From: Taiwanofungus camphoratus
Lineage: Eukaryota; Basidiomycota; Agaricomycetes; Polyporales; Taiwanofungaceae
Length of the DNA stretch: 64,000 bases
Assembly (NCBI GenBank): GCA_003999685.1
Contig: CP021220.1
Coordinates: forward strand, 2,356,001-2,420,000
Direction of reading: 5' to 3'
The translations under genes were made by a program, and so were the position numbers. Positions 38,147 through 44,400 of this stretch are shown here, one piece after another. The notes beneath the pieces are model-generated. The model searched no databases and was not told the DNA's origin. It saw nothing but the letters and a program-made list of their open reading frames with translations. The number at the start of each line of letters is the position of its first letter. Position 1 is the stretch's first letter.

Positions 38147-39224
38147 TCATTTCAAAGCAATTCTTGCTTGAGCGGTATCGACGGTCCTCTTGAGAAGGGC
38201 GATGACTTGCTCCGGCTCTGGGGCATTGAATATTGCCGTGCCCGCAACAATGACATTGCTCCCTAAGGCAAAAGTCATATCAGTGTTACGAAAAATCACA
38301 GTGCATCGCTCGTGGAAAAAAACCGACCCGCATCCGCACAAACGTCTATGGTCTTGGGCCCAACGCCGCCGTCGACCTCAATATCCTTGTTGGGGAAGCG
38401 AGTCCGCAGCTCGGACACTTTGGGGACACAGCGGTCCAGAAATTTCTGTCCCCCACGACCTTGATGGAGTGATCATAGCTATGAGCTTTCACGATGCAGA
38501 AGGACGGATGAGTGCGGCTAACGAACCGGGGTAGACCGTCATGACGAGTAGCATGTCTGCCGCTTCGCCTACCTCGTCGGTGATAGCAGTTGAAGGCGTG
38601 TCAGGCGAGATGGCGACGCCGGCCTTCATGTTGCGCTCGTGGATTGTGTTGATGAGGGAGATGGGATCCGCTGTGGCAGCGGTCACCTCATGACGAGGCA
38701 TCCATCCTGAGAGAAGAGCGTACCAGTCGCTTCAAGATGGAAGCAGTAAAGAGCGCCACCTGCATCTGCGATGTCGTTCACCCACTGTACGAATGATAAG
38801 GGACGGCATTGGGCAGCGATATATGCTTGCACACCTTCTCCGGTTGTGAAACCATCATGTGGCAATCCATGAATATGCCTGGTACCCCCTTCGACACACA
38901 AGACAGGATCGGGGCACCTGCATGCAAGTGAGAATCTCAACGCGAAGCTCTAGTGCTGTGACATACCCATGGTGATGTTAGGCACGAAATGGCTGATACA
39001 GACATGATCAGCACAGGGAATAGGGTCGTCTCATTGAGTATATTACCCATCCATAACGTCTACCATCCAAGGGGACCCTGTCTTGAGACTGTCTTCAGCA
39101 GCGGGGCAAAAGGCTCACCCATGTGCAGCCACTCGGCACCGCCCTTGATCATTCTCTTGCATTCTGCGGTGAGTTGTCCGAAATCCGACGCGAGGACGGA
39201 AGGGGAGATGATGGCGCGAGGCAT
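38147..39224 (-). CDS. RPE1: Ribulose-phosphate 3-epimerase
   Basis: Pentose phosphate enzyme interconverting ribulose-5-phosphate and xylulose-5-phosphate in the cytosol; TIM barrel. Eight exons: 39119-39224, 39047-39059, 38967-38992, 38835-38917, 38724-38784, 38527-38670, 38328-38459, 38147-38262; 226 aa, a normal length. Seen: PRAIISPSVLASDFGQL, HMDVMDGHFVPNITMGAP with metal/catalytic Asp and His, DCHMMVSQPE, CFHLEAT, VAISPDTP, VYPGRGGQKF and DIEVDGGV with the second catalytic Asp. The usual Phe of PGFGGQ is Arg here. Exon 2 is only 13 nt and carries the DVMDG active-site Asp, so it cannot be omitted. Confidence 0.95.
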
Positions 39225-39506: not shown

Positions 39507-40303
39507 ATGTTCTCGAGAGCGAGTCTGTTCGTCTGTGCCCTGGTGTTCGCCATCGTGGCGGTCGTCAGCGCCAATCCAATCGAAGAAAAGCGACAAGGTA
39601 ACTGTTAATCTACATGCTGATGCCCGGTTACTGATGGTCGGTGATACTACAGCCAATAGCGTCTACAATTCCGTGACCTCGGACATCGGTTCGGTCGTAA
39701 CAGACGCAACGTCTTTCGCCGGATCGGTTTTCACTGATGCTACGTCCTTTGGAGGCAGCATTGCGACCATCGTCACTTGTAAGGGCTCCCATACTCAGCA
39801 GCTTCTTACCGTTGTTGACTGTTCCTTATAGCGGCTGCCGGTCACGGATATACCATTGTGACATCCGAGGGGGGTAATGCCTTTACTCTGGCCACGAGTG
39901 GCGCTGGAGTTGTCACCACTTTCGCTGGCTCAGTATATACCGCTGCTACTGATGCCGTTGGGTCTGCGATCTCGGGTGCTCCGAGGTAAGCGTCTTGTTA
40001 CTGACTTGGGCATGTTTCTGACAGCTTCACGTATTCAGCTCTTCGACTTCCCCCCCAAGGTAAGTGTCCTGTTGCTGACTTACGACATGTTTCTAACAAT
40101 CTTACGTATTCAGCTCCTCGACTTCCTCCCCCAGGTAACTGTCCTGTTGCTGACCTGAGACATGTTTCTGACAATCTCACGTATTCAGCTCTTCGACTTC
40201 TTCCAATGCGGCCATGAACTCCTTCACCGTGTCTCGTCCATTATTGACTAGCTTGGCTGCTGTATTTGGTGGCATTTGCATTGGTGCTTGGGTAACGCTT
40301 TGA
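39507..40303 (+). CDS. Predicted GPI-anchored Ser/Thr-rich cell-wall protein
   Basis: Six exons: 39507-39597, 39653-39778, 39832-39985, 40039-40059, 40114-40134, 40189-40303; 175 aa. A signal peptide (SLFVCALVFAIVAVVSA) is followed by EEKRQ, a possible Kex2-type site. The body is rich in Ser, Thr, Ala and Gly with an internal repeat (DATSFAGS, DATSFGGS). A stalk of three 7-residue repeats follows (SSSTSPP, SSSTSSP, SSSTSSN), then a hydrophobic C-terminus (LLTSLAAVFGGICIGAWVTL) fitting a GPI-attachment signal. Exons 4 and 5 are both 21 nt in the same phase and are flanked by near-identical introns. Function is unknown; a wall or adhesin-like role is inferred from composition. Confidence 0.8.
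39986..40209 (+). repeat. Tandem intron-plus-exon repeat (three copies)
   Basis: Three head-to-tail copies of a 74- to 75-bp unit made of one complete intron (53, 54 and 54 nt) and one 21-nt exon piece. Introns at 39986-40038, 40060-40113 and 40135-40188 share GTAAs/cGTCcTGTT, CTGACttg-like, CATGTTTCT and the acceptor CGTATTCAG; the last two differ at about 6 of 54 positions. Exon pieces start CTCTTCGACTTC or CTCCTCGACTTC. All junctions are AG|GT, so each copy is spliceable and keeps the frame. Confidence 0.92.
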
Positions 40304-40671: not shown

Positions 40672-41327
40672 TTAGGCCTGGCTCATGTCCTTGTTGACCT
40701 AGACACAAGCCTGTTGGATAATGCAGCATGTAAAAATTTACGCGGACGTACATGAGGGTTGAAGAAAAGGGAGTTCATTCCCCAAGGGAAGGGACCGCAT
40801 GCTAAGAGATAGTCAGTACAATGCCGTATGGATAACAGGGGAGGATGACATACGACGCCTATTCAAGTACTCATACTCAGGCAGCTCGGGCAGCTTACCG
40901 TCATGCTCGGCCTTGATGTGCTCCTGATGAGCAGCATGCTCGGCCTCGACGTTACGCACCCAAAGCGCAGTGACGGCAACTGGGAATAAGAGTTATGGCT
41001 AGCATCCGCCGAATGCGCTGGAACACGTACTGGCAGGAAGACAAACGTAGAAGCTGTGGTCAGGATAGAGATATTATGTACTATACTAGTTCTCTGAGTA
41101 GGCCAATCACCTACCTGACCCTGCGCCAGAGGTTAGCGGTCTCTGCCACCGTGTGTGTCAATTTCACTTCTAATGCGCGAAAACCGGGAAGTCTTACCAG
41201 CGGCATGCGCCTTCAGAGCGGCCTGCTTCTCCGCCCAGTCGGTCTTCATGAGCTCCCCCGTGGTGTTGGCATATCCACGAGTGCGAGGAAGCGCACGCAA
41301 AAGTGCACGACGAGCTAGCATCGACAT
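40672..41327 (-). CDS. COX13: Cytochrome c oxidase subunit VIa (Cox13)
   Basis: Nuclear-encoded regulatory subunit of respiratory complex IV. Six exons: 41198-41327, 41115-41142, 41031-41053, 40854-40979, 40752-40801, 40672-40698; 127 aa. The N-terminus (MSMLARRALLRALPRTRGYA) is a matrix presequence. Then come a charged segment, one membrane helix (VSFYVCLPAIAVTALWV), EAEHAAHQEHIKAEH, ELPEYEYLNRR and the family end PFPWGMNSLFFNPHVN. Splice phases were fixed by this last motif. A second in-frame ATG two codons in cannot be excluded as start. Its start lies 161 bp from the divergent RPN2 start. Confidence 0.94.
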
Positions 41328-41488
41328 CGAGATGGTGAATTTACTGGTAGAAGGACGAACACGGAAGAGAACGCGACTCTTGAGGCAGGCGGATGGGAAC
41401 GGCTTACGTCATACGCTGCACGTGGTGCACACGCACTGACGCGTCTCCCAAAAGTCGAAGAGGTTACAAGTCTACTACACCGTCAGAC

Positions 41489-44400
41489 ATGGTTGCGCGT
41501 CCTCAGTCCTCTGCCGCGGGTGTGCTCGCGCTGCTCTCAGAGCCCGAACCTCTACTCAAACAGCACGCGCTGAAGGCTCTGAACACGCTTGTTCCGCAGT
41601 TCTGGGCCGAAATCTCAGAACACATTACTCTCATGTGCGTACGCAAGTAAGTGCCTTTTCAAGTTGACTGTTCTGAATGTCGGTCCTATTCAGCGAAGCA
41701 CTCTATGAGAGCGACGAGCTGTCTAAGGAGGCGCATGATGCGGCTGCACTGCTTGTAAGCCAAGTCTACTATTACCTGGGAGAATATGAGGAAGCCCTGT
41801 CTTTCGCTCTCGGCGCGGGAAGTGCGTTCGAAGCGCACAGTCGCGCTTCAGGAGCGGGAGAATATGTAGAGACCATAGTTTGTAAGTCGGATGGATTGCT
41901 TTTCGCGTGTACAGATCTAACGGATTCTCTTGCGTCGTAGCGAAGGCCATTGACCGGTATATCCAAGCACGGTCTCCCGAGCAGCCAGGAATGGAACCGA
42001 AGATTGACCCCAAGTTACAAGGCATTATTGAGGGCATCTTCAGACACTGCATCGACGATGGGGAGTACAAACAGGTAACTGACAAGCTAATCCACACGAA
42101 ATATGTTGTTAACGTTTAACCCGCTCACAGGCAATGGGTATCGCCCTGGAATCTCGGCGCCTCGACGTGGTCTCGCACATATACGAACGCACGCGCGATA
42201 CTAGCTTGCTCTCTTACGCAATGGACGCCGTTCTAGACACTGCTTTTCCGCTCGCATACCGTGACCAGGTCCTCAAATTTCTCCTTCCCCTCTTTCCTCC
42301 ACCAACGAGTGACACGAAGTCACCTCATGTTTACTCTTTAACTCGGCTATTAGTCACGCTGAGTTCGCCTGAGCTGACCGTTCCGCTTTTGACTTCGCTG
42401 GTGCCGAAGGAGAACCTCCTTGCCTACCAGATCGCCTTTGACCTGGTCGAAGGTGGTGCCCAGGACTTTTTAGAAAGCGTTCGAAAGGAGTTGCCGGAAG
42501 GTGAAGGGGTGAGTTTTCCGTTTTGTCGAGTGGATAGGCTCGCATTGACTTTGAGCATCGTATAATAGGAAACCAAAGCAATTTACGACAAGCTACGGAG
42601 AATTCTACTTGGGCAAGAATCTATCAAATTGTACCTAGCATTCTTGAAGCGTAACAACAAAGTTGACATGCTGATCTTGAAAAATACGAAGGTAGGTTGA
42701 GAGTTCTCACATGCATCCAGCTACCGCTAACTCGCTCTGACTTTGTGTAGGATTGTTTGGAGCCTCGTTCGTCTATATATCACACCGCTCTCACGTTCCA
42801 GAACGCATTCATGCATGCTGGGACTACTTCCGACATCTTTCTTCGAGAAAATCTTGAGTGGCTTGGTCTTGCATCAAATTGGTCAAAGTTCTCTGCTACC
42901 GCAGCTCTTGGTGTCATTCACAAGGGACATTTCGAAGAGAGTATGAACATTCTTGGCCCATACCTCCCTACTCCCGGAAACGCAGACAGCGGTCTCCCCG
43001 GTGCGCAGTACTCAGAAGGAGGTGCGCTGTATGCTCTCGGTCTTGTCAATGCTGGGTGCGGAAGTGGTAGACACGTGGAAGAGTATCTGCGAAACACCTT
43101 GAAGTCATCGCAGAGCGAAGTCGTTCAGCACGGAGCGGCTCTGGGATTGGGTGTTGCTGGAATGGGAGGAAAGAATGCCGAGACATATGACGAGCTGAAG
43201 CAGGCATTGTTTAATTCAGATTCTGCGGTTGCCGGTGAGGCAGCGGGCTATGCTATGGGGTTAATTATGCTCGGCACTGCGGATGCATCTTGCGTTGAAG
43301 AAATGCTGCAATATACAAGGGAGACTCGTCATGAGAAGATCATCCGTGGTATCGCCATTGGCCTTGCCTTCATATTCTACGGAAGACAAGAACAGGCAGA
43401 TGAAATGGTAAAAATTCTCATGGACGAGAAAGTAGGAGAATTTGAGTTCCCCGTGTTTACCATTTACTCATACATTGTCTAGGATCCCATCTTACGATAC
43501 GGCGGTGTCTATACTCTTGCACTCGCGTACGCCGGCACATCAAATAATGACGCCATCCGTAAACTGCTGCATATTGCAGTTTCGGATACATCAGACGATG
43601 TCAGGAGAGCCGCCGTGACATCTCTCGCCTTCTTACTTTTCAAGAATCCTTCTCAAGTTCCCCGAATTGTACAGCTACTGAGTGAGAGTTACAATCCTCA
43701 TGTTCGGTGCGGTGCCACACTCGCTTTAGGTATCGCCTGTGCAGGCACTGGACTGCAGGTAAGTTGTTGCACGATACAGTTTATGATGCCTTTCTGATAT
43801 ATGTTGCAATACAGGATGCGGTTGAGATCTTGGAGCCAATGACCAAGGATAGTGTGGACTTCGTGCGCCAAGGTGCTTTCATAGCGCTTGGTATGGTTCT
43901 TGTTGAACAATCCGAAGCATCCACACCGTCGCTCGCGTCCACGCGCGCCTTGTATGCGAAGATCGTCGCGGACAAGCATGAGGATCCAATGGCTCGCTTC
44001 GGCGCGGCTTTGGGACAGGGCCTAATCGATGCAGGCGGTCGCAATGTCACCATCAGCTTGCAGAGCAGGGCTGGAAGCCGCAACACAAATGCCATAGTTG
44101 GCATGGTGTTGTTCTGCCAGTTCTGGTATTGGTATCCATTGGCCCATTGTGCATGCCTGGCCTTCGACCCCACTGCAATCATAGGTTTGGACGGGACTTT
44201 GCAGGTAATGATGTTGCACATCTTCTTTATGGGTTATGCTGAAAGGTTTACAAGGCGCCGAACTTCGAATTTATTTCTAATGCACGACCTAGTCTCTTCG
44301 CTTACCCTACTCCGACAAAGCCGCCGAAGAAGGAAACCGTGACAAAGGTCGCTACCGCTGTCCTCTCCACCACAGCAAAGGCCAAAGCGAGGGAGAAGAA

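Follow-up and report, generated by a model that had tools for sequence, protein, structure and literature searches.

A gene predicted to encode a Ser/Thr-rich surface protein has probably gained two introns through tandem duplication, at the DNA level, of a unit made up of one whole intron and adjoining exon sequence. The gene lies in the window, that is, the whole 64,000-nt stretch of DNA that was analysed (G000:C1:2356001-2420000, from a genome of 33.2 Mb in 15 contigs, by its gene and intron style probably that of a filamentous basidiomycete), and positions below are those of the window unless a contig is named. The repeat was confirmed, and its interpretation as a duplication has good support. 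An earlier note on this DNA had put forward an in-frame tandem duplication of a whole intron together with exon sequence, and this held up on the array itself, the identities between its copies, and the existence of relatives with one intron.

The whole coding region (39507..40303, forward strand, as for all features of the gene given here) consists of six exons whose spliced translation is open from ATG to TGA and yields a 175-aa Ser/Thr-rich protein with the repeats SSSTSPP, SSSTSSP, and SSSTSSN. The gene model places intron 1 at 39598..39652 (55 nt, phase 1, donor GTAACT) and intron 2 at 39779..39831 (53 nt, phase 1), followed by three phase-2 introns that constitute the repeat copies: intron 3 at 39986..40038 (copy 1, 53 nt, the most diverged), intron 4 at 40060..40113 (copy 2, 54 nt), and intron 5 at 40135..40188 (copy 3, 54 nt, donor GTAACT). 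Two mini-exons of 21 nt are interposed, exon A (40039..40059) contributing SSSTSPP and exon B (40114..40134) contributing SSSTSSP, and the last coding exon occupies 40189..40303. Judged by eye, the protein comprises an N-terminal signal-like segment, a Ser/Thr/Ala/Val-rich body, a Ser/Thr linker, and a hydrophobic, GPI-signal-like C-terminus, and a wall (surface) protein is a reasonable guess for the product. A Pfam search of the 175-aa protein recovered no family above the cut-off (best E 0.1), and the best PDB match (potassium channels, E 0.13) was not meaningful.

The start of a ribulose-phosphate 3-epimerase-like gene (39060-39224, reverse strand; Pfam E 0.0005, 20 bits, just below the cut-off of 21.1) is oriented divergently to the array gene, the two starts lying ~280 bp apart. 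On the other side are a small reverse-strand gene (~40860-41330), which by eye could be guessed to encode a COX6A-type mitochondrial respiratory-chain subunit and whose N-terminal piece had no Pfam match, and the forward-strand start of a gene for the 26S proteasome subunit RPN2 (~41490-41881; Pfam E 2e-15 and 1e-18 for two pieces, PDB E 3e-22).

The array was detected independently by TRF as a period-75 repeat at 39984..40200 on the forward strand (2.9 copies, 86% matches, score 309). Introns 4 and 5 are identical at 48/54 sites and different at 6/54, whereas intron 3 aligns to intron 4 with 43 identities, 10 mismatches, and 1 gap, and to intron 5 with 44 identities, 9 mismatches, and 1 gap. 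The corresponding JC distances are 0.12 (4-5), 0.22 (3-4), and 0.19 (3-5) substitutions per site. For each of the three intron pairs, the observed alignment score was reached in none of 500 shuffles in which the first four and last three bases of one partner were kept constant. Mini-exons A and B differ at 3/21 sites, about the same rate as the introns, and two of these three changes are silent (scored by hand), too few to show constraint. These results agree with the earlier description of three consecutive near-copy introns (53, 54, and 54 nt, the first shorter and more diverged) in a unit of about 75 bp with AG|GT borders, as AG precedes the donor of all three introns, and the spliced translation likewise returned the 7-residue Ser/Thr repeats that had been predicted to be in frame. 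The same note had described a 21-nt exon piece after each intron; this is true of the two mini-exons, but the third piece consists of the first 16 nt of the last exon (CTCTTCGACTTCTTCC), hence 2.9 units rather than three. An assembly artefact was also considered; the copies are 11-19% apart and an assembly duplicate is therefore unlikely.

Among the 13 variable intron columns, intron 3 stands apart in seven, intron 4 in two, and intron 5 in two, and all three differ in the remaining two, a pattern that fits either a two-step duplication or homogenisation that did not reach an edge copy. The two inner junctions, CTTCCCCCCCAAG and CTTCCTCCCCCAG, have the length of a join between the right flank CTTCTTCC and the left flank CCGAG, from which they differ at three letters and two letters, respectively. 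Because the inner junctions resemble such flank joins, CCGAG + intron + CTCTTCGACTTCTTCC (75 bp) is the probable unit of duplication. The array shows a feature expected of intron multiplication, namely neighbouring copies of one intron plus flanking exon sequence.

We searched the genome for relatives of the array gene (P1) that might display the state of this stretch before the additional introns. A protein search with the P1 product returned 11 places, four of which are the gene itself. Two belong to a paralog, P2 (C1:3901942-3902879, reverse strand; E 0.0028 and 0.0029), one is the tail only of a third gene, P3 (C1:3916464, forward strand), a weak match at E 0.19, and the remaining four had E values of 0.34 or worse. 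Searching in turn with the body of P2 yielded five places, four in P2 and one in the window gene at E 0.014. Outside the linker, P1 and P2 aligned with a score of 157, where 2000 shuffles reached at most 85 (144 and 85, respectively, with the signal-like segment removed), and tail scores exceeded their shuffle maxima for P1-P2 (69 versus 39), P1-P3 (62 versus 38), and P2-P3 (76 versus 44). Identity between P1 and P2 is 47% (MAFFT), where P2 is known from a gene model made in this analysis. A search for relatives in viral contigs confirmed none out of 108 pattern matches.

The P2 model has seven exons, with the acceptor of its intron 5 set by hand to TTCCAG (55 nt, phase unchanged), as the intron was an implausible 34 nt before. 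With this hand-set acceptor, P2 intron 5 coincides with array-gene intron 2 in alignment column and phase. P2 intron 1 and array-gene intron 1 share a phase and a like motif (KRG| versus KRQ|), placed four columns apart by MAFFT. Three introns of the P2 model are absent from the array gene, and the model includes exons of only 27 and 33 nt. Where the array gene has three introns, P2 has a single phase-2 intron of 65 nt in the interval from the TLATS..FAG block to the tail. The exon preceding this single intron terminates in CCGAG|GT, as does the exon before array-gene intron 3, and the two introns fall eight columns apart in the MAFFT alignment, in low-complexity sequence. On phase, junction letters, and order, we infer that the P2 intron occupies the intron 3 position. 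P3 has one phase-2 intron ahead of its matching tail (determined by hand). Relatives with fewer introns at the site were thus found within the genome itself, and because P2 and P3 each have a single phase-2 intron there, one intron would be the simplest ancestral state of the stretch, as judged from distant paralogs.

We assessed whether the splice signals within the copies are intact and what their use or disuse would mean for the mRNA. With all introns spliced out, the linker reads APSSSTSPPSSSTSSPSSSTSSNAA. Skipping of exon A, exon B, or both keeps the frame, while retention of intron 3, 4, or 5 leads to an instant stop after 124, 131, or 138 residues. All three copies contain the branch-like motifs CTGAC (bases 16-20) and CT[AG]AC (starting at base 33 or 34); in the latter, the A is 17 nt from the intron 3' end. 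In a weak test, the 13 variable columns all lay outside the 11 core splice columns (GTAA, CT-AC, and CAG; chance 0.033) and outside a narrower set of seven (chance 0.127); the copies do differ at donor positions +5 and +6. Because variable columns avoid the core splice columns, there is mild support for the array splice sites being in use. The intron 5 donor, GTAACT, is uncommon (1/90 in a noisy collection of inferred introns, where GTAAGT itself accounted for 5/90), though it is also found at intron 1 of the same gene. An ORF-based set of 834 intron candidates, too noisy for a splice-site model, showed a bump at 50-59 nt (61 versus 25-49 in other full bins). The nine other introns modelled in the array gene, P2, and P3 measure 52-65 nt, similar to the 53-54 nt of the array copies.

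A search of the genome for similar units elsewhere, as the earlier note had advised, found the unit only at the array, which is not introner-like behaviour. A 321-bp region covering it matched one place only in the 33.2-Mb genome, and the 75-bp unit (E up to 10) matched only its three copies, by a DNA search that skips very common words. A 20-mer from the 5' half, allowed up to three mismatches, matched the three copies and one further site with three mismatches (two matches for the control). A 19-mer from the 3' half had 15 matching sites, of which two fall within the array (five for the control); no related intron was seen at the other 13 sites, inspected by eye over 70 bases on each side. 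Of 66 pairs among the 12 introns of the three genes, only the three pairs formed by introns 3-5 beat all 500 shuffles, and for two further pairs 3 and 10 shuffles equalled or exceeded the observed score, which is within chance expectation. We also screened a 264-kb sample, composed of the window plus twenty 10-kb stretches (one picked for P2), which represents 0.8% of the genome and does not provide a genome-wide rate. There, TRF reported two arrays with a period of at least 40, this array and a GGA-rich repeat (L038:8196-8329, 51-bp unit, 2.6 copies, possibly coding). Of 1803 consensus intron candidates in the same sample, many of them surely false, only those in the array had a look-alike neighbour within 300 bp, and of the seven candidate pairs that passed the filter, five came from the array and two were without real similarity. 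In a separate search of the assembly for 5.8S rRNA, no match was found among the 39 of 978 first-look candidates that were scored, and rDNA may be missing from the assembly or may have been missed.

Other explanations for the array differ chiefly in whether the introns are used and whether they were copied here. Tandem copies of splice signals may be little more than a mirage, in which the inner sites are little used and the transcript is spliced from 39985 to 40189, removing 203 nt as one intron and leaving a single SSSTSSN. Such a product, skipping both mini-exons, would be in frame, the mini-exons show no visible constraint, and in amphioxus comparable mirages seem not to disturb normal mRNA splicing (PMC3087553). 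The amphioxus units, however, copy one boundary, whereas the repeat here extends beyond a single exon-intron boundary and each copy is a complete intron of 53-54 nt with donor, branch-like site, and acceptor, its core signals intact. Copy length also resembles that of the nine other modelled introns, the P2 model likewise has very short exons, and a Cryptococcus gene of like construction has EST-supported introns (PMC2395259). We regard little use of the inner sites as unlikely, though worth weighing; the inner mini-exons are likely used in the mRNA, and the signals mildly favour splicing of all three introns. The array might instead be ancient in the lineage, with three old introns homogenised by gene conversion. 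The 11-19% divergence of the copies would suit this, as would the greater likeness of the inner pair relative to the edge copy, as if array edges escape homogenisation, but the matching stretch of P2 contains one intron, one lies ahead of the P3 tail, and the flanking exon pieces were copied too. We consider this quite improbable; it partly overlaps the duplication reading, such that the likelihoods of the two are not additive, and conversion after duplication, which may have occurred, would leave the origin unchanged.

Insertion of intron copies beside the original, by an introner-like element or a reverse-spliced intron, would also derive the copies from one intron, and fungi are known to carry introner-like elements (PMC4457414). 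Against it, exon bases were copied with the intron, the copies are tandem and in register, and the genome searches recovered no copy elsewhere and no near-identical introns in unrelated genes; with no further genome copies, the unit is therefore not an introner, and we judge this origin very improbable. Transposition of an intron on its own was rejected because exon bases were copied along with it. Creation of introns as in the model of Rogers, in which an exonic AGGT segment is duplicated and one copy turns into an intron, would account for AG|GT at all three donors. The unit already holds a full intron, branch site and acceptor included, relatives carry an intron in the same stretch, and no intron arising from duplicated exonic sequence was found, which leaves this possibility with almost no weight.

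Tandem duplication of an existing intron with its exon borders has published counterparts. Sharpton et al. (2008) described Cryptococcus introns multiplied by repeats that carry a full intron (PMC2395259). In CNN00420, which has six introns, introns 3-5 are identical and lie in repeats of ~107 nt composed of exon ends and a full intron; splicing is EST-supported, copy number differs among strains, and orthologs lack two of the introns (PMC2395259). The array gene is similar in being a single-copy basidiomycete gene with a unit of exon ends plus one full intron, neighbouring introns that are copies, and two extra introns, and differs in its 75-nt unit, its 11-19% divergence, and in being known from genome sequence alone. 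In Arabidopsis TOUCH3, an entire intron was duplicated internally (Knowles and McLysaght 2006, cited in PMC4974935 and PMC2395259), an event termed multiplication of a preexisting intron and not creation (PMC4974935); duplicated entire introns are also credited to Gao and Lynch (2009) in PMC4974935, and the distinction between multiplication and creation recurs in the note to Table 1 of PMC3443670. As in TOUCH3, an entire intron was copied with exon sequence on both sides, as inferred against a paralog; unlike the plant gene, with its two internal gene duplications, the array gene carries 21-nt mini-exons. The amphioxus mirages, minisatellite-like copies of exon-intron boundaries (PMC3087553), share minisatellite-like tandem copies with splice signals inside a gene, but involve one boundary with splicing seemingly unaltered, where whole introns are copied here. 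Cases under the Rogers model, tandem genomic duplication creating introns, come from fission yeast (PMC3629103) and potato (PMC4974935), and while intron number is raised by tandem duplication in both settings, those new introns stem from exonic or mixed sequence and here a ready-made intron was multiplied. For Zymoseptoria, intron duplications of other types, same-gene tandem ones included, are put at <1% of single gains (PMC4457414), and microexons have been called new to filamentous fungi (PMC11121469).

Set against this literature, parts of the earlier note were overstated. It spoke of intron gain, which is correct in that intron number rose, but a pre-existing intron was multiplied and none was created de novo. 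The two new introns that it called spliceable are better described as probably spliced. Its wording of a recent event caught in the act does not suit copies separated by 0.12-0.22 substitutions per site, compared with the identical, strain-polymorphic copies in Cryptococcus (PMC2395259), and its claim of rarity was too strong for a process already published, including in that basidiomycete (PMC2395259).

For the favoured origin by duplication, the starting segment would have been 75 bp long, comprising the last few bases of an exon, a whole phase-2 intron, and 16 bases from the start of the following exon. Its tandem duplication at the DNA level, most simply twice, would have turned one intron into three, with donor, branch site, and acceptor carried along in each copy. 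Slippage or unequal exchange, acting in two steps, would be a plausible route, with end joining as a further candidate mechanism. With a mini-exon length divisible by three and every intron of the array in phase 2, each extra unit would lengthen the Ser/Thr linker, presumably a glycosylated stalk, by seven residues with the frame unshifted. Mini-exon skipping would likewise stay in frame, while intron retention would be harmful through its immediate stop. The duplication likely survived because added or skipped units remain in frame. More speculatively, the locus could be a living intron-exon minisatellite, in which the number of 75-bp units varies by strain and any donor joins any later acceptor, always in frame, so that a stalk would carry one, two, or three of the SSSTxxx repeats; we consider this unlikely.

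The array is one further case of a published mechanism, not the first of a new one. Intron multiplications whose source is still readable appear uncommon in the intron-gain literature as represented in the reports cited here, and the array gene has relatives within its own genome that display the one-intron state. In P2, the long Ser run lies within one exon, after the single phase-2 intron of this stretch. Since the long Ser linker of P2 is thus encoded by a single exon, as opposed to the repeated intron-exon units of the array gene, the comparison suggests one protein change reached by two routes at the DNA level.
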